64,000 bases of DNA from Nymphaea colorata (Eukaryota > Streptophyta > Magnoliopsida > Nymphaeales > Nymphaeaceae). The notes under the pieces were generated by a model. The model saw nothing but the letters and a program-made list of their open reading frames with translations. It did no database searches and was not told the DNA's origin. Position 1 is the stretch's first letter; each line of letters begins with the position of its first letter. Location: NCBI RefSeq assembly GCF_008831285.2, contig NC_045150.1:10554001-10618000 (forward strand), written 5' to 3'. Of this stretch, positions 10,986 through 59,857 are shown piece by piece. Both the position numbers and the translations under genes were made by a program.

Positions 10986-11058
10986 GGAATCTCGGTGCAT
11001 CACAAAAGACCTGATCAATAAGTAGTTTAATATTATATGTCTGAAAGAGAAGTCCACT

Positions 11059-11426: not shown

Positions 11427-11434
11427 GGTCCACC

Positions 11435-30772: not shown

Positions 30773-30832
<60 letters not shown>

Positions 30833-30875
30833 GGAGAGAAATAAGGTACCTGAATGAATGCTCACCCTTAGCTAA
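30315..30875. other. Copy-2-specific insert with AT/AG microsatellite
   Basis: Sequence without counterpart in block C copy 1. It includes CTCGAGCCAAGTTCGAGCTG low-complexity sequence near 30388, A-rich tracts near 30556 and an (AT)n(AG)n microsatellite at 30774-30829. No coding sequence or clear termini. Confidence 0.5.
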
Positions 30876-30960
30876 TACAAAACTCTACAATATACATTGA
30901 TTTTCTTTTGGCATCTGCCAACCATTCACATCGAAAACACCCTACACATTTTTAAATTGC

Positions 30961-32279
30961 TGTTCACTGATCACCCACTTTGTTTTCTTTGACGTGGAAG
31001 AAAATATGTAGATCTAAATGACCTTGCTACTTCAACGTTCTCTGAGAGAGAGAGAGATCTGACTGGGGGAGAGATTCTAGTCTTTCGAAAAATAAACCTA
31101 TATCTGAAAGTATGACTATAAACCTGCATTCACATCGAAGCCACCCTGCATTTTTTTGTAGTTCTAAATGCATTTTTTAATGGTTATCACTGATGACATC
31201 TGTCCAACCATTTTATATATTTTCTTTCGGCATATATCTGTAATTTAATTTTGATTGTTTAGCTTTCTCGGCAATGCACATGCATTTAGTTAGTCAGGTT
31301 TTAGAAATAATTGCTCAAAACCACTAGTTTCGATGAGATGGTTTTGTATATCTATTGGTTGAACTTTTTTTTTTGGTCCCATGGCATATTCCATCCGTCG
31401 ACTTTTCTCCCGCATACCAAGTCAAAAAACTTTAACATATAACTTTTGTGTTTGGATCGTTTTCCAAGAGTGTCCTTTTAACTTCCGCGTACTCTTAGGT
31501 TGTTTGCGTGGCAAAACTCATTTTTTGAGGTAAAAAATGATTCTTCCTTCTAAGACACTGTTTCGTAAGAGTTTAGATGATAAGCAGTGCAAGTTCTATG
31601 AAGAATTATTTTTGGAAGAAAATATTTTACTCAAATTAATGAACAAACAAAAAACTGTTTTGGTTAAATATCCAAACATACAAATCTGTTTGCAAAACTA
31701 ATTACAAAATAAGTTTTAAAAAACTATTTTTCGTAAAACCTTTTTTTGTAGTGTGCCATTAAAACACTAACACATCTTAGACTGAACGTACTGAAATATT
31801 TCCACACTCTTTCACAAAATTATAAAAAGTGGCTCAATTTTTGGCAAAATAGTAAATCCCCAGTCAACTCTTGAAAATTAAGAAATGTGCACTTAACTTT
31901 TGTGATGAAATTTCGATGAGTTGCTTCTGCATGGAAGTCACTAAAATTATAAGGAATAATTTACACAGTTGACCATTTATTGAAAATTATCCTTTTTATT
32001 TTTGTCTTCCTTTGCAGATAATTTAGATTGAGATGAGTAATTTTTTAAATTATCCCTTTCTTTTAATGGCTGCTGCCGCTACAGCTTCTTAAACCCATTA
32101 ATACATAAGTCACTGATTTTTCCATTGCTCGGCCCGTTCAGTGCCACGACAAATTCAATACTTGGGAGACAATGCCCTTGGAGTCCAGGCTTTACCTTTT
32201 TCTCTTTAGGAATTAGGGCTTCGCCAACAGTTGAGCAGAAATGTCATACGCCCATGCCCATGCTTTTGAGCAGTACTCA
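30961..32279. other. Block C copy 2 spacer, no gene recognised
   Basis: Counterpart of 9150-10555, AT-rich, with no conserved open frame. Confidence 0.6.
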
Positions 32280-32660
32280 TGGAAATTGGATTGAAGAGCA
32301 CTTTCAAGGACCGCCTCACTTTGGTGAGTGGGGAGGTCAGTGCAATAGAGAACCTCAGATCTGATGCGAACAATCAGTCGACGGACCTGAGCTTAGAGCC
32401 GGTGGGCGAACTCACTCTAATGGTGTACCTTTTGGGAACAAGGCTTAATCCACTTAGTGTAGGCATTTTCCAGAGGTTGCAGATGATAGTTGTTCCTATT
32501 TGACCCGAAGCCAATTGATCTAGCCATGAGCCGGAAGAAGAGAGCTCTAGCAGGCCTTGGAGGACTGAACCCACGTTTGTGGCAAAATACGGGGATGACT
32601 TGTGGCTAGGGGTGAAAGGATATAGCTGGTTTTCCGCAAAATCTATTCCAAAAGGGATCT
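32280..32660 (+). pseudogene. rrn26: Nuclear copy of mitochondrial 26S rRNA fragment (NUMT), copy 2
   Basis: Same rRNA segment as at 10560-10985 and in places closer to the mitochondrial sequence: TTCCTATTTGACCCGAAGCC, GGCCTTGGAGGACTGAACCC, GATGACTTGTGGCTAGGGGT and ATATAGCTGGTTTTCCGC. A private deletion removes the bases between GTGAAAGG and ATATAGC (CCAACCAAGATCGG in copy 1), and the CTCGCCGGCCCGATC region of copy 1 is missing. The two copies share the gap at ACCTTTTG-GGAACA, so they descend from one insertion that was duplicated with block C. Confidence 0.8.
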
Positions 32661-32726
32661 CGGTGCATCACAAAAGACTGGGTCAATAAGTAGATTAAGA
32701 TTATATGTCTAAAAGATAGGTCCACT

Positions 32727-33496
32727 TAGGGCTGCACAACAAGTTGAGCCAGCTCAAACTTGATTTGATTGAACTCACTCGTTGAAGCTCAACTCGAACT
32801 CGACTTGTTTATAAATGAGTTGAGCTCGAGTTCAAATGTATACTCGAAATGTTAAATGAGTCGAGTTCGAGTTGTAAATGAAAGAAAAGAGAAACAAGAG
32901 AGGGAGAAAGTGACGACTCAAGAGGATGAGTATGAGTAAATCTCTTGCAATATTGACTGCAAGAGTATTCCTTAATTTATATAATGTTACAAGGTTACAG
33001 CGTGTGATGTAAATATGGAAACATTACAATGTTATGAAGTTGGTAACAAAGGTAAGAATCCAACGTTACAATGGTATCAATATAGCAAGGTGTTAGGTAT
33101 ATAATTTGGAATTCAGAAATTATTTCCTTGGCTGAGTTGATCCTCCAACTGATAATCTTTTCTTGCTTGTTCATCCGTTGCTTTCTCCTTGACATTTGGG
33201 AAATCTTTCACAGTAAAAACTCAACTCGGTTTGACTCTACAATGAATATTGAATTATAATAAGAAAAAAAAAATTGAACAAGTAAAAACTAAACAAGTTA
33301 GACAAGTGAAATGAAACAATACATGTTTAACATAAACAAGTTAAATGAGTCGAGTTTGAGCCCGATGTTGTATCATCGAGTCGAGCTCGAGCTTGTTTTG
33401 GAGCTCGAGTCGAGTTCAAGCTCGAGTTTGCTGAGTGAAGTCGAGCTCGGGCTGACCCAACTAGACCTTGACTTGACTCATGCATGTGCAGCCCTG
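32727..33496. mobile_element. hAT-type MITE with TAGGGCTG ends, copy 2, carrying a nested solo LTR
   Basis: Ends TAGGGCTGCA and TGCAGCCCTG are flanked by identical octamers GGTCCACT (32719-32726 and 33497-33504), a perfect hAT-type target-site duplication. Without the nested LTR and its 5-base duplication the element is about 431 bp, compared with 368 bp in copy 1. The interior is GAGCTCGAG/TCGAGTT low-complexity sequence. Confidence 0.8.
32879..33212 (-). mobile_element. Solo LTR of a Copia-type element, 334 bp
   Basis: The unit starts TGAAAGAAAAG and ends CTTTCACA on the plus strand and is flanked by GTAAA on both sides (32874-32878 and 33213-33217), a perfect 5-base target-site duplication. 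On the minus strand it has a TATATAAATTAAGG promoter-like box, then a pyrimidine-rich end CTCTTTTCTTTCA, as in plant Copia LTRs. No internal sequence follows, so the rest was removed by LTR-LTR recombination. Confidence 0.8.
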
Positions 33497-33504
33497 GGTC
33501 CACT

Positions 33505-36319
33505 ACATATTACAAAGAACAAAACCCTATTCTTAGGTTTTGATATGAAACCAAGCCCTGCTCTGCCAAAGCCAAATTGAGCTATAAACCAACAAAAAGG
33601 AGAAAACTGGAAAATTAGTGGAATTTGGGAAATAGTTGCCTAATACAACGCATCCAACTCGTTAATTATATGTGGGTAGATATCAATTAATTTGAAAGTG
33701 GTTTTTTTTTGTATTGTAGACTAAGTTAATCAAGATCAGAATATGCCTAACAACAGATTGTAGGCCAAACAGAAAAATATACACCATGTTTGAAAGCCCA
33801 AAAAACCGGCTGTGCTTCATGTCCATATTCATTTCAACATGCATGATGGTCGATCGAGCAGAAAATTTCTACAAGGTGTTATGATCCTCCCCAATTTTTT
33901 GAAAAATTATGATAACAAATATTAAGAAAAGTAACTTAGCAAATAGTAGAAGTAAAATGTTCTTGCTGTTTTTCGTAATTAAAAGAGAAACCAAATTTTC
34001 TAAGCCTTTAACTCACTAATATTTCATTTGTGTTTTTCTAAACAAAATCAATGATCTATATCTCTCTCTCCCTCCACCCCCACCTTCAAAAAAAAAAATT
34101 AAAATAAAATTCAATATTAGCTGTTTGTTAATTGGTACACTGTTTGGGATGTCCACTGTACATGAGGATCCACCTTACCAGCAAATGTTGCTGTTGTCTC
34201 AAAGATATGCACAATGAGCTAGAATCAACAGATTAATTGGCACCATTTTGGGGATTTTGTTCAGTCTTGTTAGCAACCGACACCCACCACTTTTATTAAC
34301 GGCTTTTCAAAATATTTTTATAAAAAACTTAATAACCTCAATATTGATTAATTTTGAATAATTTACTGTGGAAATTTAATATCCTCCAAGGTGTTAATTT
34401 CCAATCCTGCTGCAAATTAACTAAGCTAAACATGCCAAATTGTTTTCCTCTGACAACAAGGAAGAGATGCTTTTATATTTATTCGAACATGTACCGTTGT
34501 AGATGCATATTAATTATTAGTATATAGATTTTATCCTTCCTTTAAGCACCAAATTAATTATACATCCTCAGGAAATTCTAGACATAATTATTGCTCTTTT
34601 AATATTATGGCATCATATTATAGTAAAACTAGCTAAGTGATTTAGAGGTTCTTACGTAACAGATTATGTACTTTTCACAATGACAAACAATAGGATATAT
34701 AGCAAAAAATTAGCAAAAAAATTTACAACTATTTTGTCTCAATAGAAATAAACTCAGCAATATTTGCAATTATTTGATGTGTTTAGAATAAAATTCACAT
34801 GAAAAGGAGGCACTTTGGGCGTCACTCTCTATCACTGTAGAACATGGGGAAACAACCTGCTCACGAAATGATAAAGGTAGGGGGCTTTCCCCCCATAAAG
34901 CTGTTACTGCAACCTGCTCCCCAAATGGAGGCACTAATTGGGTCTTGTTATATATGCACTGTTTTAACATATTTTATGATAGTATTTAATTAACTTTTTC
35001 TGTATGTTGCATTTTGAGAAATATATGACTTTTAATTTCTAATACTGTTCGAGGATTCACAATTCAGTCAAACCAAATCAGCGATAAATTTCCACATCCG
35101 AACTGGTTGAAATCACAATTTTAGAATCAATTTTTTTGATGGAGTATAATACCCCACATAATGTCTAGGAAGGAGAACATAAATTAATTCATGCATTATT
35201 GCACCGCAAACTAAAGATAAATGACATGTCTCTGATAAACATGAAAATAAGTAACCAATACACAGAGAGCTCAAAATTTTGAGGCCCACTTTGTAAGCTT
35301 AATTCATTTCCTCCTTTCCTACCCACGTACAGATCCACATTTTACAGGCAACTCAGTCGTTTTCTAATGCACCACTGTCGTTTAAAACATCTCATATTTC
35401 ATCCTTTAATTTTAATGATTTTTTCAAAGCTATTTTTTTGAAAAACGTTGCATTCTTGGATACATGTCCTATGTGAACATCACGTTCTTGTTGCAGTAAT
35501 GCAAGGCGTATGTATGTCTAGATTTGATTGCTGCATTTAAAGATAATTTCATATCTTCAAATGCTATGGATGGAACATGGTTTTATTTTTTTTTTTCACA
35601 ATCCAACTTGGAAAGTTGCAATGAGAAGGATAGCACGTAACATGGAAAAACAAAAAAAAAATACATCAAGCAAGCAAAAAGTCATGCGGAACCATCTGTT
35701 GGGTGCTTCGAGTAATATTTATTTCAAAAACATTATTGCATAAATTGATGTACAATATTGTTCGAGTGATATTTATTTCAAAAACATTATTGCATGAATT
35801 AATTTTTCAAACATTTTTATACTATTAAGCATCAATACAAACTATATTGACAACAAACCACTATTATTTAGAAGATACACTAAACAAGTCAACCGAGTCA
35901 AATCTTAGAATAAAAGGCATAAAATTCTCATGATTCTAGTCCTTAAAATTCTGGTAGATCATTGACCGGTTTTGGCATAACAAGGCCATCTCAGGAATGC
36001 TCCAGCCACATTGCCAGCCCTTTGATTTGCAATCACCTGAAAAGGGAAGATGGGGATGAGAACTTGGGAAGGTTTCCCAAACAATGCATACTAGTGACTG
36101 ATTGCAGCTTACGTTAAGCAATTTGAAAGTATTGTCTCACTACTACATGAAACTGAGAGATTCAATATATGGTTTCAAGAACAAATATGCACACCAAAAC
36201 ATGTAACAATGAAAAGTACAACATTCATGAATATGAGAAAGAGTTTTGTCCGCCGCTTCGTGCTTGTAACGAGCGTATGCTGCATGTGGTCCTTTCATGC
36301 CCAAATATTGCATATGCAT
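33505..36319. other. Block C copy 2 spacer, no gene recognised
   Basis: Counterpart of 11435-14269. At 35700-35800 a short phrase (CGAGTAATATTTATTTCAAA...) is locally repeated. No protein family, RNA gene or transposon end is recognised. Confidence 0.6.
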
Positions 36320-36668
36320 ATGCATGAGATAACAAAATGGTATGAAGTAACAAATAAGTAGGAGATAATGTTTATGAGAAAAAAAACATTTATGAAATAT
36401 GAGATAACGGATGGACCGATGGATATATGAGGTAACACTAAACATATATGAGTAGATGTTTATGAGATAATAAAACATATGCAAAATAATAAAATAATAG
36501 ATGGATGTATGAGATAATACTAAACATAAATATGAGATAATGCTTTTGAGAAAATAAAATATTTATATGAAAATGAGATAATGGACCGATGTATGAGATA
36601 ATGTTAAACCTAAGTATGAGATAATGTTTATGAAATAAAAAAAATATTTGAGATAATGAGATAAGGTT
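36320..36668. repeat. ATGAGATAA minisatellite, expanded version
   Basis: About four degenerate units of roughly 85-95 bases, each built from TATGAGATAATGTTTATGAG and a spacer with GGATGTATGAG. Long minus-strand frames here (for example 36143-36484) are simply translations of the repeat. Confidence 0.75.
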
Positions 36669-40924: not shown

Positions 40925-42823
40925 TATTCTACCAAGCATTGTATTTACGCTTATGTGCTGAATCCATCACTGATTCACAATATAGTTTGAAATAATTTTA
41001 TGCAAAGTTTCAATTAATTTAGATGGATTTCTTGTTCGTCCATTTTTAAAGAAAGTTCTGCCCCATGAAGAACAAGGCAGAAGGTGGAAACAAGTGTCAA
41101 CTTATCGTTGGCAATATCAATCTTTGTAGAGCAGATTGTGTCTTGGCCCCTACGCAGGGCTGCATGTTGGGGCTCTGCAAGAAGCATTCGCTTCGCTGAA
41201 GTTCCGATGCAAATCCTGCTGGAAGGTAGGCCTCCCAGACCACCTGCTTTTCTACAAGTTAATTGTACAAATGTTAACACTAGTTTTATCTTATTTTTTC
41301 AATAAATACTTGTGTTGCCATGAAAGTTCACCAGCGTGCAAGGTACCCATAGAGTCATGAAATTTTACAAACTCTTGCTTTCAAAGAATGACAGCTCTGA
41401 CTTTTTTTTTCTTTTTGTAAATTAACCACTTAAACTGAATAGAATGATGCTTTTGGCTACATAAGCAATACAAAAAATTTAAAAAAATTGGCTACAAATA
41501 TGTGTATCAGCAAGATGAGGCCCAGAAGTAAGAAGTTAGATGATGCTTTTGGCTACATAAGCAATACAAAAATTTAAGGTGCCAAACCACAGAAGACAAC
41601 TTCCTTAGAAACTCACACAATATGCAAACAGCCATAGAGAATAATGCACAAAACTTCATAAATGGCAAATATTTAAATGGCAGCTAATATATGAAAAAGC
41701 TGATGTTAGTAAATCGCAGGACATGATAAATGCACATAGATTCATGCCTGCAAAGTAAATGACTTGAAGTGGTGCACCTTTCAAAGGGATCTGATACTTT
41801 ATAGCAATGTCAGCGTTATACGGTGAAAGAAGTTCAACTTTATGTGGTGAAAAAAGTTTAATATTGGGAGGGATTTTAAGGTTTGACAGCTACCTCCTCA
41901 ACTGAACAACATTTAAATGTGGATGATGGCTAAAATATATCAAAAGCAGAGACAGTTAAGATCATCACGCCAGCCCACAAGGAAGATTGTAATTTTAAAA
42001 TTGATAAATAACAATGATTAAATCATAAACCAGATACTGATGACCACAACAACAAACTAGAAGCCAATTTATGACACACAATAAAATAATCTAAAAAACG
42101 TATACAATATAAGACGCGCTTCCACCACAAAAGAGTGGCTTAACTTGTGGGATGAGGACCTACTACTGTGATTGCCCTTCATGAGTTGCTCGGCCATTAC
42201 AGACGTGCGCTTTCACCGACGATTGCCCACCCACTGCTGTGAGTTGCTCGGCAAAGACCAGGGAAGATTCCCGCTGGACTGAGCGGGGCCGGGATTCTTT
42301 GGCTTTCTACAGGAAATATGGGGGAGAAGCCGCCGGAAAAGTCACCCGAGTTTTGAACCATCATATGCATTTTGTGTACCTATCAAGCACAAGAACGTAC
42401 GCAAGCATAATAAAATATACCCATCATTCACCATTTTTCTTTGGACTCGCCTATAATATAATGCACCCAAAAAAGAAACCAATCATTTTTCTTTTTCTCG
42501 ATTAATGGCGGTTGCTCTTCTATAACTCTGTTTCCTTTGTTTTTTCTTGGTCAATTTACCAATTTTTACCCCCAGCTCATATGGTAAATCATATGGTGTA
42601 GTGCAACGTCTCTTTCCCTTTTTGATTCTAGTATGATTAGTTGATTGATTCACATGATTACCTGATATTATATTATAACCATAGCCCCTGCTGGCCCCTT
42701 CCCTCCTCCCTTGATTGTGACTATTATACTGGGGAAGTGTCTTTCCGTTTAAAGCACAAGTGTGACTATGCATATGCTTGAGTATGCTGGCCCAACCTTC
42801 TCTCTGTCAAGATGGGTTGCAGG

Positions 42824-43080
42824 TGTTAACGCACAAACTGCTGACCGTTACAGCTGCCCACCGGATCAAGGAAATTGTGGAGATCATGCCGGCTCAATGA
42901 ATGAAGAAAATCATGATGATCATAACAAATCCAGCAAAAAGGCAAGTATACCCGCTACATTTGAAGTGATCAATCAAGGAAGAACACCTCACATCCATCA
43001 CCTAGTTGGTGTGAGAGACAGTGGACATAGGATTTTCAATCCGAACCACTTAAAATCTTAGTCTTGCTTTTGTTCTTTCA
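42824..43080 (+). repeat. Copia 5' LTR, unit 1 (257 bp, internally deleted)
   Basis: Begins TGTTAACGCACAAACTG after GCAGG and ends TTGTTCTTTCA. Relative to the 422-bp copies it lacks 165 bases between two ACCTCACA repeats, and its first 110 bases carry several private substitutions. The primer site after it is damaged (TTGTATCAAAGCC). Confidence 0.85.
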
Positions 43081-43120
43081 TTGTATCAAAGCCATTTCCA
43101 TGAGGATTATCGACTTCTCC

Positions 43121-45586
43121 ATGGCTTCCAGTGCATCTTCCTCGTTCGTCATGGCAGCTAAGTATCCATATCTTTCAACTTTATGGCAAATTTTGTCTCT
43201 ATCAAACTCTCCCACAAGAATTACTTGCTTTGGAAAACCCAAATGCTTGGACTCATTGAAAGTCAAGACATGAGGGATTTATAGAGGGACAAATCTCCAA
43301 ACCGACCTCCACCATTGAAATTATTGAAAATGGTGAGGCCCGTTCTGTCCCAAATCCAGAATTTCTTGCCTGGAAAAAATCAGACCGACTCCTTAGAGGA
43401 TGGATCACTGGATCACTCTCTGAAGAAGTGCTAGGTCTTGTGGTTGGACTCCAAAGCTCTTCCGAAGTTTGGACTGCTCTTATAAAGGTCCTTGCTAGAG
43501 AATCCAATGACTGAGAATTTCTGTTAAACAGAAAATTGCAGACATTTTAAAAGCAAGAAAAAACTATTACTGAGTATATAACAGGTTTCAAAACCATATG
43601 CGATGATTTGGCAGCCATTGGGAAACCTTTGTCGATCAAGACAAAGTTTATTGGCTCATAAATGGGCTTGGATCAGGATATGAATCGTTTATGAGTCGAT
43701 ACTTCGACCTCCGATTCCTGCATATATTTATGTTGTCTCTCTGCTTGAAAGCCATGACAACATGAAAAACATCCATGGGTTTCAACTTAATCCTAATGCT
43801 GCGTTCATAAGTCAGCAAGTTCCAGTTCAACCTTCCTACTCTCACAATTATAGAGGACGTGACCATTATACCAGAAAAAACGGCAATCCTCGCTTCAACT
43901 CGCGAGGACATGGATTTCCACCCGCTTCTCAATATCGTCCCACCAATACTCCAGCCAATGCCGGGCGAAATACCACCCAGCCTTCAGTGAAAGCAGCGTG
44001 TCAAATTTGTGGGTTGAGTAATCACACGACATTCAAATGTTACCACAGATTCAATCAGGCGTATCAACCAAAAGATCTTCCAAAATTTTTTCCACCATTC
44101 AAGTTGCCGATCCTAATGATGCATACTGGTATCCGGACACTGGCGCAACTTCTCATGTTACAGATGATCCAGGTACACTCAAACATTTCATTAAATATCA
44201 TGGAATTGATTCAGTTATGGTTGGAAACGGGCAGCATTTACCGATAACTCTTATTGGTTCTACTAATCTTGATCTTGGAAATAGGACTCTTCCTCTTGAT
44301 AATGTGCTGGTTGTTCTTGCTATAAAGAAAAACCTTATTTCCGTAAGTCAGCTTACATCTTCTATGCCCTATGTCTTTGAGTTTACATCGGATTCATTTG
44401 TGATTAAGGACAAGGAAACCAATCAGACGATTGCCAAGGGAGCTAGAGAGGGAGATTTGTATGCGCTCAAGACCAGACCAAAAGCAGTATTTTTTTCTGA
44501 TCGTTTCAGGACAGCAACTTCAGAGATTTGGCACAATCGGCTCGGGCATCCATCAGCTAAGATCATTGACTTTTTGTCGTCCAAGGGTAGAATAAATTTA
44601 GCAGCAAAAGTGTCTATGTTTTCTATTTGTCAAAGTTGTCAATTGGGAAAAGCAACATGTTTGTCTTTTCTTCCATTCGATGATGAATATTATGAACCTT
44701 TTGAAAAAAATCATTGTGATCTCTGGGGACCAGCACCGGTTGATTCATGTCAAAAATTTCAATATTATGCTGTCTTTGTTGATCACCATTCTCGATACTC
44801 TCGATCCATTAAAATCTAAGTCTGATTTTTTTGCAAAGTTTATGGAGTTTCATAGGATGGTGAGTACGCAATTTGGAAGATCTGTTAAAAAATTTCAAAG
44901 TGATGAAGGTGGTGAATTCAATAGCAATGCTTTTCTCTCTTATCTAAGAGAATGTGGAATCAAACATCTCAAGGCTTGTCCAAAAACACCTGAACAGAAT
45001 GGGTTGGTGGAGCGCAAACACAATTCTGTTACTGAACTTGGATTAACTGTATTGTTTCTTAGTAATGTACCAGCAAAACATTGGGTGGAAGCCTTTACTA
45101 CAACTGTTTGGCTCATAAATCGGTTGCCGACGTCCACGCTCCAAATGCTAAGTCTATATGAAAGCTTATTTCATAAACCTCCCGACTGTTCTTGCCTAAG
45201 CACTTTTGGGTGTAGATGTTTTCCCTACATCATGGGCTACAACAAACACAAATTTGAACCCAAATCTTTACCATGTGTCTTCATAGGGTATAGTGACCAA
45301 CACAAAGGTTATCGCTGCCTTTATCTTTTGACAAATCGGGTATACATTTCAAGACACGTGGTGTTTGATGGAAAATGCTTTCCTTTCAATCAAGGTTTGG
45401 CAAACACACAACTGAGTTACAACTTTGCTCATGATCTAGTGTCCTTCTCTCCCGTCGCTGCACAACCTAATCAGCCTTCTCTCATTGAAGTGAACCCTCA
45501 CGATGTTGCGAGACTTCACAATAGTGAACCAGAACCTCCCCTTTGTGCTTCTACTCTACCATCACCAGCCATGCCTCCCTTACCTT
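43121..45586 (+). pseudogene. Copia gag-pol, unit 1 (truncated in pol)
   Basis: Gag starts MASSASSSFVMAAKYPYLST and goes out of frame at once. It returns to read gag, the zinc knuckle CQICGLSNHTTFKC, protease YPDTGATSHVTDD, the integrase zinc region (WHNRLGHPSA, CQSCQLGKATC), and integrase motifs SDEGGEF and EQNGLVERKHN. A TGA in gag (ESND-stop) and a frameshift just after VDHHSRYS in integrase are shared by all units. The copy ends at 45586, before reverse transcriptase, where host sequence follows. From about 43750 on it is virtually identical to unit 2, whereas its earlier part differs more. Confidence 0.85.
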
Positions 45587-47819
45587 TATTCTACCAAGCA
45601 TTGGATTTACGCTTATGTGCTGAATCCATCACTGATTCACAATATACTTTGAAATAATTTTATGCAAAGTTTCAATTAATTTAGATGGATTTCTTGTTCG
45701 TCCATTTTAAAGAAAGTTCTACCCCATGAAAAACAAGGCAGAAGGTGGAAACAAGTGTCAACTTATCGTTGGCAATATCAATCTTTGTAGAGCAGATTGT
45801 GTCTTGGCCCCTACGCAGGGCTGCTTGTTGGGGCTCCGCAAGAAGCATTCACTTCGCTGAAGTTCCGATGCAAATCCTGCTGGAAGGTAGGCCTCCCAGA
45901 CCACCTGCTTTTCTACAAGTTAATTGTACAAATGTTAACACTAGTTTTATCTTATTTTTTCAATAAATACTTGTGTTGCCATGAAAGTTCACCAGCGTGC
46001 AAGGTACCCATAGAGTCATGAAATTTTACAAACTCTTGCTTTCAAAGAATGACAGCTCTGACTTTTTTTTTCTTTTTGTAAATTAACCACTTAAACTGAA
46101 TAGAATGATGCTTTTGGCTACATAACAATACAAAAAATTTAAAAAAATTGGCTACAAATATGTGTATCAGCAAGATGAGGCCAGAAGTAAGAAGTTAGAT
46201 GATGCTTTTGGCTACATAAGCAATACAAAAATTTAAGGTGCCAAACCACAGAAGACAACTTCCTTAGAAACTCACACAATATGCAAACAGCCATAGAGAA
46301 TAATGTACAAAACTTCATAAATGGCAAATATTTAAATGGCAGCTAATATATGAAAAAGCTGATGTTAGTAAATCGCAGGACATGATAAATGCACATAGAT
46401 TCATGCCTGCAAAGTAAATGACTTGAAGTGGTGCACCTTTCAAAGGGATCTGATACTTTATAGCAATGTCAGCGTTATCCGGTGAAAGAAGTTCAACTTT
46501 ATGTGGTGAAAAAAGTTTAATATTGGGAGGAATTTTAAGGTTTGACAGCTACCTCCTCAACTGAACAACATTTAAATGTGGATGATGGCTAAAATATATC
46601 AAAAGCAGAGACAGTTAAGATCATCACGCCAGCCCACAAGGAAGATTGTAATTTTAAAATTGATAAATAACAATGATTAAATCATAAAACAGATACTGAT
46701 GACCACAACAACAAACTAGAAGCCAATTTATGACACACAATAAAATAATCTAAAAAACGTATACAATATAAGACGCGCTTCCGCCACAAAAGAGTGGCTT
46801 AACTTGTGGGATGAGGACCTACTACTGTGATTGCCCTTCATGAGTTGCTCGGCCATTACAGACGTGCGCTTTCACCGACGATTGCCCACCCACTGCTGTG
46901 AGTTGCTCGGCAAAGACCAGGGAAGATTCCGCTGGACTGAGCGGGGCCGGGATTCTTTGGCTTTCTACAGGAAATATGGGGGAGAAGCCGCCGGAAAAGT
47001 CACCCGAGTTTTGAACCATCATATGCATTTTGTGTACCTAGCAAGCACAAGAACGTAAGCAAGCGTAATAAAATATACCCATCATTCACCATTTTTCTTT
47101 GGACTCGCCTATAATATAATGCACCCAAAAAAGAAACCAATCATTTTTCTTTTTCTCGATTAATGGCGGTTGCTCTTCTGTAACTCTGTTTCCTTTGTTT
47201 TTTCTTGGTCAATTTACCAATTTTTACCCCCCAGCTCATATGGTAAATCATATGGTGTAGTGCAACGTCTCTTTCTCTTTTGCAGTAAACAATGACTTCT
47301 ATTCTGTCATGCCCTAAGAATGAATGTGACTTGGCCGACCCCTCACGCTTACGATGCTAACCACACAAACAGGGAGGCGCTCAACTTTATCCTCAACAAC
47401 CAGGTCGTAGGAATGGGGTACCAACCGCCATGTCCCCTCCTAATTCTACTTTCTGTTTCTCCTTCCAAATCATCAGAACATCTTCTGGTTTGATACCACT
47501 TTATCAGAAATTCAGGAGCAGCACTCACAAGTTCCAAGCGGTCGTTTCTTTCGTCGTTTCCAATAAAATTAGTAAGCCATCCATGTGGTTCATAGATGTT
47601 ATTTGATTTCTTTGCTTTTGATTCTAGTATGATTAGTTGATTGATTCACATGATTACCTGATATTATATTATAACCATAGCCCCTGCTGGCCCCTTCCCT
47701 CCGCCCTTGATTGTGACTATTATACTGGGGAAGTGCCTTTCCGTTTAAAGCACAAGTGTGACTATGCATATGCTTGAGTATGCTGGCCCAACCTTCTCTC
47801 TCTCAAGATGGGCTGCAGG

Positions 47820-48241
47820 TGTTAAAGCACAAGCTGCTGACCGTTGCAGCTGCCCACCGGATGAAGGAAATTGTGGAGATCATGCAAGCTCAATGAATGA
47901 GGAAAATCATGAAGATCATAACAAATCCAGCAAAAAGGCAAGTATACCCGCTACATTTGAAGTGATCAATCAAGGAAGAACACCTCACAAGGCAAGGATT
48001 CTAGGCAAGAAAAGTGGCAGTGTACCCTCATCAAAAGAGAAAGAAATGATTATAGAAACTAGAAAATCAAGGAATGATTGTTTGAATTTTAAACAAATCT
48101 ATAGCAATCCCTTCAACAATCATGTATAAATTCTCTCATCAAGGGAACCTCACATCCATCACCTAGTTGGTGTGAGAGACAGTGGACATAGGATTTTCAA
48201 TCCGAACCACTTAAAATCTTAGTCTTGCTTTTGTTCTTTCA
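47820..48241 (+). repeat. Copia 5' LTR, unit 2 (422 bp)
   Basis: TGTTAAAGCACAAGCTG to TTGTTCTTTCA, preceded by GCAGG and followed by the primer site TGGTATCAGAGCC. By eye it is identical to the LTR of unit 3. Confidence 0.9.
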
Positions 48242-48281
48242 TGGTATCAGAGCCATTTCCGTGAGGATTATCGACTTCTCC

Positions 48282-50735
48282 ATGGCTTCCAGTGCATCCT
48301 CCTCGTTCGTCATGGCAGCTAAGTATCCATATCTTTCAACTTGCAAATTTTGTCTCTATCAAACTCTCCCACAAGAATTACTTGCTTTGGAAAACCCAAA
48401 TGCTTGGACTCATTGAAAGTCAAGACATGTTGGGATTTATAAAGGGAAAAATCTCCAAACGGACCTCCACCATTGAAATTATTGAAAATGGTGAGGCCCG
48501 TTCTGTCCCAAATCCAGAATTTCTTGCCTGGAAAAAATCAGACGAGATGGATCACTGGATCACTCTCTGAAGAAGTGCTAGGTCTTGTCGTTGGACTCCA
48601 AAGCTCTTCTGAAGTTTGGACTGCTCTTATAAAGGTCCTTGCTAGAGAATCCAAAGACTGAGAATTTCTGTTAAACAGAAAATTGCAGACATTTCAAAAG
48701 CAAGAAAAAACTATTACTGAGTATATAACAGGTTTCAAAACCATATTCGATGATTTGGCAGCCATTGGGAAACCTTTGTCGGATCAAGACAAAGTTTATT
48801 GGCTCATAAATGGGCTTGGATCAGGATATGAATCGTTTATGACGTCGATACTTCGACCTCGTATTCCTGCATATATTTATGTTGTCTCTCTGCTTGAAAG
48901 CCATGACAACATGAAAAACATCCATGGGTTTCAACTTAATCCTAATGCTGCGTTCATAAGTCAGCAGTTCCAGTTCAACCTTCCTACTCTCACAATTACA
49001 GAGGACGTGACCATTATACCAGAAAAAACGGCAATCCTCGCTTCAACTCGCGAGGACATGGATTTCCACCCGCTTCTCAATATCGTCCCACCAATACTCC
49101 AGCCAATGCCGGGCGAAATACCACCCAGCCTTCAGTGAAAGCAGCGTGTCAAATTTGTGGGTTGAGTAATCACACGACATTCAAATGTTACCACAGATTC
49201 AATCAGGCGTATCAACCAAAAGATCTTCCAAAAATTTTTTCCACCATTCAAGTTGCCGATCCTAATGATGCATACTGGTATCCGGACACTGGCGCAACTT
49301 CTCATGTTACAGATGATCCAGGTACACTCAAACATTTCATTAAATATCATGGAATTGATTCAGTTATGGTTGGAAACGGGCAGCATTTACCGATAACTCT
49401 TATTGGTTCTACTAATCTTGATCTTGGAAATAGGACTCTTCCTCTTGATAATGTGCTGGTTGTTCTTGCTATAAAGAAAAACCTTATTTCCGTAAGTCAG
49501 CTTACATCTTCTATGCCCTATGTCTTTGAGTTTACATCGGATTCATTTGTGATTAAGGACAAGGAAACCAATCAGACGATTGCCAAGGGAGCTAGAGAGG
49601 GAGATTTGTATGCGCTCAAGACCAGACCAAAAGCAGTATTTTTTTCTGATCGTTTCAGGACAGCAACTTCAGAGATTTGGCACAATCGGCTCGGGCATCC
49701 ATCAGCTAAGATCATTGACTTTTTGTCGTCCAAGGGTAGAATAAATTTAGCAGCAAAAGTGTCTATGTTTTCTATTTGTCAAAGTTGTCAATTGGGAAAA
49801 GCAACATGTTTGTCTTTTCTTCCATTCGATGATGAATATTATGAACCTTTTGAAAAAAATCATTGTGATCTCTGGGGACCAGCACCGGTTGATTCATGTC
49901 AAAAATTTCAATATTATGCTGTCTTTGTTGATCACCATTCTCGATACTCTCGATCCATTAAAATCTAAGTCTGATTTTTTTGCAAAGTTTATGGAGTTTC
50001 ATAGGATGGTGAGTACGCAATTTGGAAGATCTGTTAAAAAATTTCAAAGTGATGAAGGTGGTGAATTCAATAGCAATGCTTTTCTCTCTTATCTAAGAGA
50101 ATGTGGAATCAAACATCTCAAGGCTTGTCCAAAAACACCTGAACAGAATGGGTTGGTGGAGCGCAAACACAATTCTGTTACTGAACTTGGATTAACTGTA
50201 TTGTTTCTTAGTAATGTACCAGCAAAACATTGGGTGGAAGCCTTTACTACAACTGTTTGGCTCATAAATCGGTTGCCGACGTCCACGCTCCAAATGCTAA
50301 GTCTATATGAAAGCTTATTTCATAAACCTCCCGACTGTTCTTGCCTAAGCACTTTTGGGTGTAGATGTTTTCCCTACATCATGGGCTACAACAAACACAA
50401 ATTTGAACCCAAATCTTTACCATGTGTCTTCATAGGGTATAGTGACCAACACAAAGGTTATCGCTGCCTTTATCTTTTGACAAATCGGGTATACATTTCA
50501 AGACACGTGGTGTTTGATGGAAAATGCTTTCCTTTCAATCAAGGTTTGGCAAACACACAACTGAGTTACAACTTTGCTCATGATCTAGTGTCCTTCTCTC
50601 CCGTCGCTGCACAACCTAATCAGCCTTCTCTCATTGAAGTGAACCCTCACGATGTTGCGAGACTTCACAATAGTGAACCAGAACCTCCCCTTTGTGCTTC
50701 TACTCTACCATCACCAGCCATGCCTCCCTTACCTT
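48282..50735 (+). pseudogene. Copia gag-pol, unit 2 (truncated in pol)
   Basis: Same layout as unit 1: gag with a four-base loss after YPYLST compared with unit 1, a TGA after ARESKD, zinc knuckle CQICGLSNHTTFKC, protease YPDTGATSHVTDD, integrase split by the shared frameshift into 49135-49968 and 49829-50806. A one-base deletion near 48966 (CAGCAGTTCC) shifts gag. No reverse transcriptase or RNase H is present, so the copy can only be a substrate, not a source of activity. Confidence 0.85.
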
Positions 50736-52868
50736 TATTCTACCAAGCATTGGATTTACGCTTATGTGCTGAATCCATCACTGATTCACAATATACTTTG
50801 AAATAATTTTATGCAAAGTTTCAATTAATTTAGATGGATTTCTTGTTCGTCCATTTTAAAGAAAGTTCTACCCCATGAAAAACAAGGCAGAAGGTGGAAA
50901 CAAGTGTCAACTTATCGTTGGCAATATCAATCTTTGTAGAGCAGATTGTGTCTTGGCCCCTACGCAGGGCTGCTTGTTGGGGCTCCGCAAGAAGCATTCA
51001 CTTCGCTGAAGTTCCGATGCAAATCCTGCTGGAAGGTAGGCCTCCCAGACCACCTGCTTTTCTACAAGTTAATTGTACAAATGTTAACACTAGTTTTATC
51101 TTATTTTTTCAATAAATACTTGTGTTGCCATGAAAGTTCACCAGCGTGCAAGGTACCCATAGAGTCATGAAATTTTACAAACTCTTGCTTTCAAAGAATG
51201 ACAGCTCTGACTTTTTTTTTCTTTTTGTAAATTAACCACTTAAACTGAATAGAATGATGCTTTTGGCTACATAAGCAATACAAAAAATTTAAAAAAATTG
51301 GCTACAAATATGTGTATCAGCAAGATGAGGCCCAGAAGTAAGAAGTTAGATGATGCTTTTGGCTACATAAGCAATACAAAAATTTAAGGTGCCAAACCAC
51401 AGAAGACAACTTCCTTAGAAACTCACACAATATGCAAACAGCCATAGAGAATAATGCACAAAACTTCATAAATGGCAAATATTTAAATGGCAGCTAATAT
51501 ATGAAAAAGCTGATGTTAGTAAATCGCAGGACATGATAAATGCACATAGATTCATGCCTGCAAAGTAAATGACTTGAAGTGGTGCACCTTTCAAAGGGAT
51601 CTGATACTTTATAGCAATGTCAGCGTTATCCGGTGAAAGAAGTTCAACTTTATGTGGTGAAAAAAGTTTAATATTGGGAGGAATTTTAAGGTTTGACAGC
51701 TACCTCCTCAACTGAACAACATTTAAATGTGGATGATGGCTAAAATATATCAAAAGCAGAGACAGTTAAGATCATCACGCCAGCCCACAAGGAAGATTGT
51801 AATTTTAAAATTGATAAATAACAATGATTAAATCATAAAACAGATACTGATGACCACAACAACAAACTAGAAGCCAATTTATGACACACAATAAAATAAT
51901 CTAAAAACGTATACAATATAAGACGCGCTTCCGCCACAAAAGAGTGGCTTAACTTGTGGGATGAGGACCTACTACTGTGATTGCCCTTCATGAGTTGCTC
52001 GGCCATTACAGACGTGCGCTTTCACCGACGATTGCCCACCCACTGCTGTGAGTTGCTCGGCAAAGACCAGGGAAGATTCCCGCTGGACTGAGCGGGGCCG
52101 GGATTCTTTGGCTTTCTACAGGAAATATGGGGGAGAAGCCGCCGGAAAAGTCACCCGAGTTTTGAACCATCATATGCATTTTGTGTACCTAGCAAGCACA
52201 AGAACGTAAGCAAGCGTAATAAAATATACCCATCATTCACCATTTTTCTTTGGACTCGCCTATAATATAATGCACCCAAAAAAGAAACCAATCATTTTTC
52301 TTTTTCTCGATTAATGGCGGTTGCTCTTCTGTAACTCTGTTTCCTTTGTTTTTTCTTGGTCAATTTACCAATTTTTACCCCCCAGCTCATATGGTAAATC
52401 ATATGGTGTAGTGCAACGTCTCTTTCTCTTTTGCAGTAAACAATGACTTCTATTCTGTCATGCCCTAAGAATGAATGTGACTTGGCCGACCCCTCACGCT
52501 TACGATGCTAACCACACAAACAGGGAGGCGCTCAACTTTATCCTCAACAACCAGGTCGTAGGAATGGGGTACCAACCGCCATGTCCCCTCCTAATTCTAC
52601 TTTCTGTTTCTCCTTCCAAATCATCAGAACATCTTCTGGTTTGATACCACTTTATCAGAAATTCAGGAGCAGCACTCACAAGTTCCAAGCGGTCGTTTCT
52701 TTCGTCGTTTCCAATAAAATTAGTAAGCCATCCATGTGGTTCATAGATGTTATTTGATTTCTTTGCTTTTGATTCTAGTATGATTAGTTGATTGATTCAC
52801 ATGATTACCTGATATTATATTATAACCATAGCCCCTGCTGGCCCCTTCCCTCCGCCCTTGATTGTGAC

Positions 52869-52875
52869 TATTATA
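52869..52875 (+). promoter_or_regulatory. Possible TATA box of the interrupted small ORF
   Basis: TATTATA about 90 bases before the ATG at 52959. The same box precedes the ATG in units 1 (42722) and 2. Position fits a plant promoter with a short leader, but no transcript evidence is available. Confidence 0.35.
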
Positions 52876-52970
52876 CTGGGGAAGTGCCTTTCCGTTTAAA
52901 GCACAAGTGTGACTATGCATATGCTTGAGTATGCTGGCCCAACCTTCTCTCTCTCAAGATGGGCTGCAGG

Positions 52971-53392
52971 TGTTAAAGCACAAGCTGCTGACCGTTGCAG
53001 CTGCCCACCGGATGAAGGAAATTGTGGAGATCATGCAAGCTCAATGAATGAGGAAAATCATGAAGATCATAACAAATCCAGCAAAAAGGCAAGTATACCC
53101 GCTACATTTGAAGTGATCAATCAAGGAAGAACACCTCACAAGGCAAGGATTCTAGGCAAGAAAAGTGGCAGTGTACCCTCATCAAAAGAGAAAGAAATGA
53201 TTATAGAAACTAGAAAATCAAGGAATGATTGTTTGAATTTTAAACAAATCTATAGCAATCCCTTCAACAATCATGTATAAATTCTCTCATCAAGGGAACC
53301 TCACATCCATCACCTAGTTGGTGTGAGAGACAGTGGACATAGGATTTTCAATCCGAACCACTTAAAATCTTAGTCTTGCTTTTGTTCTTTCA
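52971..53392 (+). repeat. 5' LTR of the complete Copia (422 bp)
   Basis: TGTTAAAGCACAAGCTG to TTGTTCTTTCA. It lies directly behind the first four codons of the interrupted host ORF and adds a stop codon in that frame two codons on (TGT TAA). Confidence 0.92.
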
Positions 53393-53405
53393 TGGTATCA
53401 GAGCC
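53393..53405 (+). other. Primer binding site
   Basis: TGGTATCAGAGCC, complementary to initiator methionine tRNA, immediately after the LTR. Confidence 0.9.
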
Positions 53406-54700
53406 ATTTCCGTGAGGATTATCGACTTCTCCATGGCTTCCAGTGCATCCTCCTCGTTCGTCATGGCAGCTAAGTATCCATATCTTTCAACTTGCAAATT
53501 TTGTCTCTATCAAACTCTCCCACAAGAATTACTTGCTTTGGAAAACCCAAATGCTTGGACTCATTGAAAGTCAAGACATGTTGGGATTTATAAAGGGAAA
53601 AATCTCCAAACGGACCTCCACCATTGAAATTATTGAAAATGGTGAGGCCCGTTCTGTCCCAAATCCAGAATTTCTTGCCTGGAAAAAATCAGACGAGATG
53701 GATCACTGGATCACTCTCTGAAGAAGTGCTAGGTCTTGTCGTTGGACTCCAAAGCTCTTCTGAAGTTTGGACTGCTCTTATAAAGGTCCTTGCTAGAGAA
53801 TCCAAAGACTGAGAATTTCTGTTAAACAGAAAATTGCAGACATTTCAAAAGCAAGAAAAAACTATTACTGAGTATATAACAGGTTTCAAAACCATATTCG
53901 ATGATTTGGCAGCCATTGGGAAACCTTTGTCGGATCAAGACAAAGTTTATTGGCTCATAAATGGGCTTGGATCAGGATATGAATCGTTTATGACGTCGAT
54001 ACTTCGACCTCGTATTCCTGCATATATTTATGTTGTCTCTCTGCTTGAAAGCCATGACAACATGAAAAACATCCATGGGTTTCAACTTAATCCTAATGCT
54101 GCGTTCATAAGTCAGCTAGTTCCAGTTCAACCTTCCTACTCTCACAATTACAGAGGACGTGACCATTATACCAGAAAAAACGGCAATCCTCGCTTCAACT
54201 CGCGAGGACATGGATTTCCACCCGCTTCTCAATATCGTCCCACCAATACTCCAGCCAATGCCGGGCGAAATACCACCCAGCCTTCAGTGAAAGCAGCGTG
54301 TCAAATTTGTGGGTTGAGTAATCACACGACATTCAAATGTTACCACAGATTCAATCAGGCGTATCAACCAAAAGATCTTCCAAAATTTTTTCCACCATTC
54401 AAGTTGCCGATCCTAATGATGCATACTGGTATCCGGACACTGGCGCAACTTCTCATGTTACAGATGATCCAGGTACACTCAAACATTTCATTAAATATCA
54501 TGGAATTGATTCAGTTATGGTTGGAAACGGGCAGCATTTACCGATAACTCTTATTGGTTCTACTAATCTTGATCTTGGAAATAGGACTCTTCCTCTTGAT
54601 AATGTGCTGGTTGTTCTTGCTATAAAGAAAAACCTTATTTCCGTAAGTCAGCTTACATCTTCTATGCCCTATGTCTTTGAGTTACATCGGATTCATTTGT

Positions 54701-57612
54701 GATTAAGGACAAGAAACCAATCAGACGATTGCCAAGGGAGCTAGAGAGGGAGATTTGTATGCGCTCAAGACCAGACCAAAAGCAGTATTTTTTTCTGATC
54801 GTTTCAGGACAGCAACTTCAGAGATTTGGCACAATCGGCTCGGGCATCCATCAGCTAAGATCATTGACTTTTTGTCGTCCAAGGGTAGAATAAATTTAGC
54901 AGCAAAAGTGTCTATGTTTTCTATTTGTCAAAGTTGTCAATTGGGAAAAGCAACATGTTTGTCTTTTCTTCCATTCGATGATGAATATTATGAACCTTTT
55001 GAAAAAAATCATTGTGATCTCTGGGACCAGCACCGGTTGATTCATGTCAAAAATTTCAATATTATGCTGTCTTTGTTGATCACCATTCTCGATACTCTCG
55101 ATCCATTAAAATCTAAGTCTGATTTTTTGCAAAGTTTATGGAGTTTCATAGGATGGTGAGTACGCAATTTGGAAGATCTGTTAAAAAATTTCAAAGTGAT
55201 GAAGGTGGTGAATTCAATAGCAATGCTTTCTCTCTTATCTAAGAGAATGTGGAATCAAACATCTCAAGGCTTGTCCAAAAACACCTGAACAGAATGGGTT
55301 GGTGGAGCGCAAACACAATTCTGTTACTGAACTTGGATTAACTCTATTGTTTCTTAGTAATGTACCAGCAAAACATTGGGTGGAAGCCTTTACTACAACT
55401 GTTTGGCTCATAAATCGGTTGCCGACGTCCACGCTCCAAATGCTAAGTCTATATGAAAGCTTATTTCATAAACCTCCCGACTGTTCTTGCCTAAGACTTT
55501 TGGGTGTAGATGTTTTCCCTACATCATGGGCTACAACAAACACAAATTTGAACCCAAATCTTTACCATGTGTCTTCATAGGGTATAGTGACCAACACAAA
55601 GGTTATCGCTGCCTTTATCTTTTGACAAATCGGGTATACATTTCAAGACACGTGGTGTTTGATGGAAAATGCTTTCCTTTCAATCAAGGTTTGGCTAACA
55701 CACAACTGAGTTACAACTTTGCTCATGATCTAGTGTCCTTCTCTCCGTCACTGCACAACCTAATCAGCCTTCTCTCATTGAAGTGAACCCTCATGATGTT
55801 GCGAGACTTCACAATAGTAACCAGAACCTCCCCTTTGTGCTTCTCCTCTACCATCACCAGCCATGCCTCCCTTACCTTATCACCACCAGAGTCGTCGGTC
55901 CTTAACTCACCATCGCCGCCTAGCTCGCCAGCTCTTCCTTCACCATCGACATAGCTCACCTTCTCCAATCCCATCTAATGCCTTACCAATACCCTTACTA
56001 GACTGTCTCACCTTGGTCACACGTTCTCAACATGGTATCGTCAAACCCAATCCCAAATACATATTAACTACCCTGTGCAATCCTTGAAACATTTCTCCAT
56101 TGCCCTTAAACATCTGGTTGAGCAAGCTATGAGATGAAATGGCAGCTTTGATTAGGACAAGGAAACCAATCAGACGATTGCCAAGGGAGCTAGAGAGGGA
56201 GATTTGTATGCGCTCAAGACCAGACCAAAAGCAGTATTTTTTCTGATCGTTTCAGGACAGCAACTTCAGAGATTTGCACAATCGGCTCGGGCATCCATCA
56301 GCTAAGATCATTGACTTTTGTCGTCCAAGGGTAGAATAAATTTAGCAGCAAAGTGTCTATGTTTTCTATTTGTCAAAGTTGTCAATTGGGAAAGCAACAT
56401 GTTTGTCTTTTCTTCCATTCGATGATGAATATTATGAACCTTTTGAAAAAATCATTGTGATCTCTGGGGACCAGCACCGGTTGATTCATGTCAAAAATTT
56501 CATATTATGCTGTCTTTGTTGATCACCATTCTCGATACTCTCGATCCATTAAAATCTAAGTTGATTTTTTTGCAAAGTTTATGGAGTTTCATAGGATGGT
56601 GAGTACGCAATTTGGAAGATCTGTTAAAAAATTTCAAAGTGATGAAGGTGGTGAATTCAATAGCAATGCTTTTCTCTCTTATCTAAGAGAATGTGGAATC
56701 AAACATCTCAAGGCTTGTCCAAAAACACCTGAACAGAATGGGTTGGTGGAGCGCAAACACAATTCTGTTACTGAACTTGGATTAACTCTATTGTTTCTTA
56801 GTAATGTACCAGCAAAACATTGGGTGGAAGCCTTTACTACAACTGTTTGGCTCATAAATCGGTTGCCGACGTCCACGCTCCAAATGCTAAGTCTATATGA
56901 AAGCTTATTTCATAAACCTCCCGACTGTTCTTGCCTAAGACTTTTGGGTGTAGATGTTTTCCCTACATCATGGGCTACAACAAACACAAATTTGAACCCA
57001 AATCTTTACCATGTGTCTTCATAGGGTATAGTGACCAACACAAAGGTTATCGCTGCCTTTATCTTTTGACAAATCGGGTATACATTTCAAGACACGTGGT
57101 GTTTGATGGAAAATGCTTTCCTTTCAATCAAGGTTTGGCTAACACACAACTGAGTTACAACTTTGCTCATGATCTAGTGTCCTTCTCTCCCGTCACTGCA
57201 CAACCTAATCAGCCTTCTCTCATTGAAGTGAACCCTCACGATGTTGCGAGACTTCACAATAGTAACCAGAACCTCCCCTTTGTGCTTCTCCTCTACCATC
57301 ACCAGCCATGCCTCCCTTACCTTTATCACCACCAGAGTCGTCGGTCCTTAACTCACCATCGCCGCCTAGCTCGCCAGCTCTTCCTTCACCATCGACATGT
57401 AGCTCACCTTCTCCAATCCCATCTAATGCCTTACCAATACCCTTACTAGACTGTCTCACCCTTTGGTCACACGTTCTCAACATGGTATCGTCAAACCCAA
57501 TCCCAAATACATATTAACTACCCTTGCTCCCGCTGAACCCAAACATTTCTCCATTGCCCTTAAACATCCTGGTTGGAGGCAAGCTATGGAGGATGAAATG
57601 GCAGCTTTGATT
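54701..57612 (+). repeat. Direct 1.45-kb duplication inside pol
   Basis: 54701-56149 and 56150-57612 are two copies of the same pol segment (end of protease region through integrase to the pre-RT linker). The switch occurs at GCTTTGATT|AGGACAAGG, where source sites TTGTGATTAAGG and GCTTTGATTGCA share TGATT. The end of the first copy (about 55870-56150) contains many deletions compared with 57310-57612, including loss around CTTGCTCCCGCTGAACCC. Real slippage and a faulty assembly join are both possible. Confidence 0.85.
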
Positions 57613-59070
57613 GCAATGACACATGGACCTTGGTACCTCGCGATCCCTCCATGCATATTATTGGCAGCTGATGGGTTTACAAAACCAAATTGAATAGTGA
57701 TGGCCAAATTGACAGAATTAAGGCAAGGCTGGTGAAACAGGGTTACTCAAATTGAAGGCGTGGACTTCCTTGAAACCTTTTCACCAGTTATTAAACCAGC
57801 AACTATTCGGATCGTTCTCTCTGTTGCTCTCATGAATGGCTGGCCACTTAAACAACTTGATGTCAAAAATGCATTTTTGAATGGATATTTTACTGAAACT
57901 GTTTTTATTGAGCAGCCTCCAGGTTTCCAAGATGCTTGGTTTCCACACCATGTTTGCAAATTGAATCATGCTCTATATGGTCTCAAACAGGTCCCGCGAG
58001 CTTGGTATGATCGGTTTGCTCAATTTTTATTCTCTCACAATTTTCAAGCCAGCTCTACAGATCCATCATTATTTGTGAAACTCCAACAGTCGACTGTAAC
58101 TATACTTCTATTATATGTGGATGATATCATTCTCATTGGCAGCAGTCCAACTTTTCTTGCATACTTTCAAAATGAAGTATCTCGTACTTTTGCTATGACT
58201 GCTCTAGGGGACTTACATTATTTCTTAGGCATTCAAGTCCAACACACTGCTTCCGCCCTATTCCTCAACCAGCAACGCTTCGCTATGGACATCCTAGAAC
58301 ATGCTCAGATGCAATCATGTCGATCAACTGTTACCCCAATAGTTACTAGTGTTTATAGCAACAACACTGTAGAAGAAGAAGCATATCCCAATGCTACATT
58401 GTATCGCAGTCTTGTTGGAACTCTGTAATATCTTACTTTTACTCGACCAGACATTACTTATGTTGTTAATTATGTGTCACAGTTTATGCACGTTCCTTCC
58501 CTGCGACATTTTCAGTTGCTGAAACGCATTCTTCGATATATTTAGGGCACTATCTCTCTTGGAATGCAATTTTTTAAGCCCAGCAAATTATCATACCATG
58601 CTTATTCTGATGCAGATTGGGCCGACTGCCCCTCCACTCATTGCTCTACCACAGGCTACTGCACTTTTCTGGGCCCCAATTGTATTTCTTGGGCATCTAA
58701 AAAACAACAAAGTGTTGCGAGATCTTCTTGTGAAGCTGAATACCGTGCCCTTGCAACGGCAGCAGCAGAGCTCATTTGGATCACATTCATTCTTAGAGAT
58801 CATGGACCGTTTCTTTCTCAACCTCCCTTGCTATTATGTGACAATCTTTCTGCCTTGCAATCCACCATCAAAACTGCCCATCACTCGCGGATGAAGCATA
58901 TTGAGCTTGATTTTCATTTCGTACGAGAAAAGGTGGCTCTTGGATCATTAGTTACTCAATATATTTTGTCCACTCATCAGCTAGATGATATGTTTACCAA
59001 GCCATTGCCCCATCATCGTTTGACAGCTCTGGGATACAATCTCGGTCTTCGCTACAATCTAAGTTCGAGA

Positions 59071-59081
59071 TTGAAGGGGGA
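59071..59081 (+). other. Polypurine tract
   Basis: TTGAAGGGGGA immediately before the 3' LTR, the plus-strand primer of Copia. Confidence 0.85.
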
Positions 59082-59504
59082 TGTTAATGCACAAGCTGCT
59101 GACCGTTACAGCTGCCCACCGGATGAAGGAAATTGTGGAGATCATGCGAGCTCAATGAATGAAGAAAATCATGAAGATCATAACAAATCCAGCAAAAAAG
59201 GCAAGTATACCCGTTAGATTTGAAGTGATCAATCAAGGAAGAACACCTCACAAGTCAAGGATTCTAGGCAAGAAAAGTGGCAATGTACCATCATCAAAAG
59301 AGAAAGAAATGATTATGGAAACTAGAAAATCAAGGAAGGATTGTTTGAATTTTAAACAAATCTGTAACAATCCCTTCAACAATCATGTATAAATTCTCTC
59401 ATCAAGGGAACCTCACATCCATCACCTAGTTGGTGTGAGAGACAGTGGACGTAGGATTTTCAATCCGAAGCACTTAAAATGTTAGTCTTGCTTTTGTTCT
59501 TTCA
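59082..59504 (+). repeat. 3' LTR of the complete Copia (423 bp)
   Basis: TGTTAATGCACAAGCTG to TTGTTCTTTCA, followed by GCAGG, the second copy of the 5-base target-site duplication. Confidence 0.92.
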
Positions 59505-59857
59505 GCAGGTTCACCATATCTGTATTGCTCGTGACGACGGCCATACTTGTAATGAGCGATTCTACACCAGCAACGTCCGAATCAAGGGAAGCTGCGCACG
59601 ACCTCAGACATGGCAGCAGCAGGAAACTGGGGATGAAGGTTGTCATCGCCAGGCGACAAGATGGAAGAGTACTATTTAGTGGGGAGTACGCACAGATGAG
59701 GAATAAGGCAGCTAAGGTACGGGATGACCCATGGTTGTCTAGCAAGAGGCCGTATCCTCCTCCTCCCAGGCCTCCAAGCAACCCACCCCATCTGCCGTAC
59801 AAGTTCAGTGGGCTAAAACCTCCGCCACCTCCCTTCCAGGATGGTGCTCACTTGTGA

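Follow-up and report, generated by a model that had tools for sequence, protein, structure and literature searches.

A Ty1/copia insertion twelve bases into a probable secreted-protein gene, followed by tandem duplication of the gene start and carrying candidate splice sites at its ends

Fridell et al. are said to have described in 1990 how a 412 retrotransposon that had entered an exon of the Drosophila vermilion gene is spliced from the precursor RNA. In yellow pepper, the CCS gene, which has a single exon, carries a copia-like insertion of 6.75 kb that is likewise spliced at junctions supplied by the element; the splicing also removes about 1 kb of coding sequence and leaves a truncated protein (PMC7475241). 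In Brassica Crr1a, transcription begins beyond a solo LTR located in an exon, and another exonic copia insertion ends the transcript inside its first LTR (PMC3559844). The principle that a target-site duplication can provide splice sites has already been described for other elements, the introners, for which the survey concerned reports no cases in land plants (PMC9860276).

The locus considered here lies in a window of 64 kb, this being the whole stretch of DNA that was analysed, and its features are collected in Table 1. A Ty1/copia element (52971-59504) is inserted 12 bases past the ATG at 52959. Its termini, TG at 52971 and CA at 59504, are flush with both 5-bp copies of GCAGG, and the insertion with its target-site duplication, proposed in an earlier note on this DNA, is real. 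The same note held that the two flanks fit together once one GCAGG is discounted and that the LTR adds a stop two codons on; both points were confirmed. The scripted join gives 119 codons, the right-hand piece opening with TTC ACC ATA at 59510 and its TGA ending at 59857, and the interrupted frame as present runs into a stop once it has read one LTR codon (TGT TAA). Insertion into a pre-existing intron was considered and rejected, there being no intron sequence between the frame and the duplications.

Table 1. Features of the interrupted frame, the Copia element, the tandem array and the candidate splice sites (window coordinates).
Feature	Position	Strand	Remarks
Left frame piece	52959..52970	+	ATG GGC TGC AGG
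Target-site duplication GCAGG, left copy	52966..52970	+	
Target-site duplication GCAGG, right copy	59505..59509	+	
Right frame piece	59510..59857	+	115 codons + TGA; hydrophobic start, proline-rich basic tail
5′ LTR	52971..53392	+	422 nt
Primer-binding-site-like sequence TGGTATCAGAGCC	directly after (3′ of) 5′ LTR	+	presumed identity
Copia interior	53393..59081	+	reading frame broken; gag and reverse transcriptase matches in this copy
Purine-rich tract	59073-59081	+	end of Copia interior
3′ LTR	59082..59504	+	423 nt
Tandem duplication (1.45 kb) inside Copia, first copy	54700..56153	+	97.6% alike to second copy
Tandem duplication (1.45 kb) inside Copia, second copy	56149-57612	+	
Array unit A	40925-45586	+	upstream sequence, left flank with ATG, LTR junction, 5′ Copia part
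Array unit B	45587-50735	+	C-like left part, A-like right part
Array unit C	50736-55878	+	sole unit continuing into the rest of Copia, 3′ LTR and right gene half
Candidate donor CAG/GTGTTA, GT	52970..52971	+	last G of left duplication + first T of LTR
Candidate tandem acceptors ...TTGTTCTTTCAG/CAG/GTT	59504..59508	+	AG at 59504-59505 and 59507-59508

The two LTRs are 96% alike, differing at 16 of 422 aligned sites (K2P 0.039). Profile searches found Retrotran_gag_2 at 53834-54544 (1.5e-07) and RVT_2 at 57760-58425 (9.2e-51); the integrase region that precedes the reverse transcriptase was recognized in the homologous stretch of array unit B through gag_pre-integrs (5.8e-12) and SH3_retrovirus (3.9e-25), rve reaching only 0.002 there, below its cut-off. 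The features of Ty1/copia membership are present, namely TG...CA LTRs with a 5-bp duplication, copia-type gag and RVT_2, and the integrase region (in unit B). The type of copia and the primer-binding-site-like sequence suggest a plant host. No single intact polyprotein frame, as a sign of autonomy, was found; the longest plus-strand frame in the Copia interior has 244 codons, and some of the breaks may be sequencing errors. Dating used the substitution rate of 1.3 per 10^8 sites per year that PMC3281118 cites for grasses from Ma and Bennetzen, a figure whose exponent has lost its sign in the source text; as a rough guide, it places the insertion about 1.5 million years ago.

At the reconstructed empty site, an ATG frame of 119 codons runs across the point of insertion, as does another of 69 codons, and two frames with ATGs further upstream extend over the start. 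Chance continuity of such a frame had been called unlikely in the earlier note, which our simulations contradict: with random left flanks of 60 nt, an open ATG frame of at least 116 codons passed through this right flank in 4403 of 20000 cases, roughly one in five, so that continuity alone is weak evidence for a gene. The same figure favours a reading in which there was no gene at all and a chance open frame happens to lie beside the Copia insertion. The GC content by codon position also speaks for that reading; it is nearly flat (0.54, 0.53 and 0.55), and codon bias therefore lends the gene no support. Among the 24 open reading frames of at least 100 codons examined in the window, moreover, one other has a start as hydrophobic as this one.

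Against a chance frame, however, stands the combination of length with a hydrophobic start, the 12-residue mean of the joined protein being 2.72. Dinucleotide shuffles of the empty site yielded an ATG frame of at least 119 codons in 41 of 5000 trials, none of the 5000 having in addition an equally hydrophobic start, and of 20000 random joins 68 reached 119 codons and two also matched the hydrophobicity. The observed N-terminal value was attained in 6 of 20000 shuffles of the residues. The ATG at 52959 has a favourable context, with A at -3 and G at +4, and GC content is 0.54 within the frame as against 0.38 after it. The 17 proline codons of the frame use all four synonyms. We consider it quite likely that a real gene occupied the insertion site and regard a chance frame as a rather doubtful alternative. 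The signal-peptide-like start of a putative gene, as the earlier note described it, is borne out as a rare hydrophobic start; the gene itself is probable rather than proven. In its intact form it was probably a small single-exon gene for a 119-residue, proline-rich and presumably secreted protein. A separate open frame of 126 codons (52900-53280) crosses the boundary between host flank and 5′ LTR, with upstream ATGs at 52915 and 52921; it is also found in unit B and could possibly encode a host-LTR fusion product.

Searches for relatives of the protein gave nothing in the collections covered, which also fits the absence of a gene. Pfam contained no match up to E = 1, nor did the Pfam profile search reveal similarity to a named family of small secreted plant peptides; short peptide motifs are poorly covered by Pfam. 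The best NCBIfam match (E 0.61) and the best PDB matches, to ribosomal protein L34 (E 0.72 and 0.95), were taken as chance and neither collection held a credible one. Prokaryote contigs gave 248 pattern matches to the right-hand protein and viral contigs 28; no relative was expected in these collections, and none of the matches was confirmed. Within the window, no paralogue of the gene was found beyond short proline-rich matches, and a text search of the literature with four short peptide words occurring in the protein found no match. Scans for tRNA and Rfam families found nothing.

Self-comparison reveals three tandem units of about 5.15 kb, designated A, B and C, by which the gene start is present three times and the right half once. 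Each unit reaches the Copia integrase region, and the additional ATG copies, with the same GCAGG/LTR junction, are located at 42812 (unit A, with GGT for GGC) and 47808 (unit B). Since all three left flanks end at that junction, the insertion came first and the array later. The differences between units (A-B 47 of 4642 sites, A-C 52 of 4637, B-C 6 of 5139) all lie below the divergence of the LTRs. The junction of Copia with upstream sequence is identical at A/B and B/C; at the original breakpoints, with one Copia copy, at most three bases (TAT) are common to both sides, which suggests end joining.

Fifty-two gap-free columns vary among the units. Forty-six of these single out A, all at or before 54151 (in C coordinates), five single out C, all at or after 55344, and one singles out B (51457). 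The gaps private to C number nine, eight of them at or after 54681 and one at 51902, while the six private to A and the three shared by B and C all fall before 54151. Unit B resembles C to about 54.2 kb and A after about 54.7 kb, as one unequal exchange between two units would leave it; unit B is a recombinant of A and C, or an assembly loop. The latter belongs to a broader alternative, that unit B or even the whole array is an artefact of assembly. A C-like left part joined to an A-like right part is what a false loop through an identical stretch gives, and the remaining differences among the units consist mostly of 1-nt gaps, possibly errors of sequencing. Yet A and C differ not only at the 52 sites but also by gaps of 337, 165, 11 and 4 nt, unit A having lost 337 nt ahead of the flank as well as 165 nt within the LTR, and at least two units must therefore be real or allelic. 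This true difference between A and C is sound, alleles assembled in tandem being another possible source of it. Unit B, too, has changes of its own: a single substitution and five differences of 1 nt, whether genuine or due to sequencing noise. On balance we think an artefact unlikely.

Several local peculiarities of the units were also recorded. Eight private 1-nt deletions occur within 1.1 kb of Copia in unit C (54681-55818), partly in runs of a base, and represent sequencing error or decay. Constraint on the duplicated proximal promoter of unit A was not seen (4 of 204 sites changed vs 40 of 4176 elsewhere, p 0.15). The tract around the ATG and the start of the LTR in unit A (42620-42993, equivalent to 52854-53064 in C coordinates) is more divergent from B and C than the rest, at 12 of 211 sites vs 40 of 4426 (p 2.4e-06), for a 211-bp tract picked after the data had been seen. 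It sits between two deletions of unit A and was perhaps converted from another allele.

Elsewhere in the window, 746-14364 and 25306-36441 are the two copies of an older direct duplication, roughly 11-14 kb long, the blocks of which are mostly 82-91% alike, with one short block at 80%. Copia remnants on the minus strand lie between its two copies and include an SH3_retrovirus match at 16903-17673. Two related minisatellites (20349-20449 and 23949-24056) with a 28-bp unit (TTGGCTGGCTCATCTT...) are situated 3.5 kb apart, each of them bordering a copia-like stretch on the minus strand.

The ends of the element contain potential splice sites. The tandem acceptor is composed of the LTR end and the right GCAGG (CTTTCAG/CAG/GTTC). 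Predicted splicing from 52970 to 59508 would remove 6539 nt, which is the element plus one duplication, and give back the original message exactly; use of the alternative acceptor at 59505 would add one codon and keep the frame. GT/AG ends together with a predicted restoration of the frame, the marks of a transposon-derived intron, are found at the level of sequence. When scored with rough, approximate weights, the donor stands at the 97.0th percentile of the 6523 GTs on both strands of the window and ranks 7 of 307 in 52900-59600, and the two acceptors stand at the 99.7th percentile of 7531 window AGs and locally rank 2 and 3 of 347. A branch-point-like CTTAA is located about 32-33 nt upstream of the acceptors, and the 5′ LTR has no AATAAA.

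These properties, the open right-hand frame and the pepper insertion spliced at element-supplied junctions (PMC7475241) would suit a gene that is still expressed, possibly from three starts, with Copia as its 6539-nt intron (donor 52970, acceptor 59508 or 59505). However, the donor deviates from the consensus at +4 to +6 and is outscored by six GTs inside the element, where competing acceptors are also found (54807, which ranks 1, and 53401, after the 5′ LTR, which ranks 5), as are AATAAA motifs at 54889 and 56335. The open frame is likewise expected without selection: in neutral simulations at the age of the LTRs it stayed open in 447 to 2432 of 4000 runs, according to the indel rate chosen. 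An intact frame was for this reason rejected as proof of function, neutral survival not being rare. The lack of constraint on the duplicated promoter and the two upstream ATGs that overlap the start at the empty site also weigh against expression through splicing. Published cases are divided: the pepper insertion was spliced but at the cost of 1 kb of the gene (PMC7475241), a copia insertion in Crr1a ended the transcript (PMC3559844), and the 412 element in vermilion is reportedly spliced out. We regard this reading as improbable.

If a five-base duplication ends in G, this base and the TG at the start of the LTR would together make a GT donor; if it begins with G or contains AG, it would make an acceptor with a pyrimidine-rich, CA-ended LTR. 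Among the 1024 five-base duplications possible for a TG...CA element, 76 permit a GT-AG intron that keeps the frame, and an exact intron is possible with 16, a coincidence too common to prove function. The pattern GNNNG always leads to an in-frame splice with one added codon and NNAGG to an exact one; GCAGG fits both. No statement of such a rule for LTR elements was found in the open-access literature text and listings searched.

The earlier note concluded that the insertion would have silenced the gene. This is likely in view of the stop in the LTR: each copy, read through, stops two codons into it, and the gene is for that reason most likely largely disrupted. Silencing is not a necessary outcome, however, because the well-ranked splice sites at the junctions, if used jointly, would restore the frame. 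The likeliest state is a gene that is mostly disrupted, with leaky in-frame splicing possible. As an account of the whole locus we favour, with reasonable though not high confidence, an insertion into a probable secreted-protein gene, followed by a tandem array, with the gene largely disrupted and some splicing possible. The Ty1/copia element inserted 12 bases into the small, probable gene and duplicated GCAGG. The stretch from the upstream sequence to the Copia integrase region (about 5.15 kb) was then duplicated in tandem, and unequal exchange between the two units would have created the third. The upstream region and the ATG are thereby present in three copies, all interrupted at an identical LTR junction, and the remainder of the gene in one. 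Some transcripts may regain the original frame because the insertion brought with it, at either end, a candidate GT donor and a candidate pair of AG acceptors.

A bolder version, in which Copia acts as a working, self-made intron of 6.5 kb and the array supplies alternative start exons before one shared body, seems to us very improbable. If true, what began as a mutation by insertion would have become, through the array, a gene with several possible starts. The more general point is that an apparent knockout may not be one, since LTR ends and duplicated target bases can form splice sites that restore the frame. Should transcripts confirm this, a retrotransposon would have become an intron in one step, and a simple duplication rule would be at hand for re-reading exonic LTR insertions that are listed as null alleles. 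Otherwise the locus would represent an ordinary gene disruption with subsequent local tandem duplication.

The 412 insertion in vermilion resembles the present one as an LTR retrotransposon in an exon that can be spliced out; splicing was reportedly shown there, whereas it is predicted here and would restore the message exactly. The pepper CCS case shares a plant Ty1/copia element in an exon with splice junctions supplied by the insert, but differs in its 6-bp duplication and in that splicing took some 1 kb of the coding sequence away as well (PMC7475241). The Crr1a insertions are also exonic and copia-derived, one of them lying 37 bp past the start codon; unlike the situation predicted here, the transcript begins after the solo LTR or, with the other insertion, terminates in the LTR that it meets first (PMC3559844). 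Introners (PMC9860276) similarly derive splice sites partly from the target-site duplication and leave the message unchanged or altered by whole codons, but they are mostly short DNA-transposon-like families, whereas a single LTR element of autonomous type is involved here. Because the splicing of retrotransposons from exons is already known, the candidate intron at this locus would be ordinary in kind.
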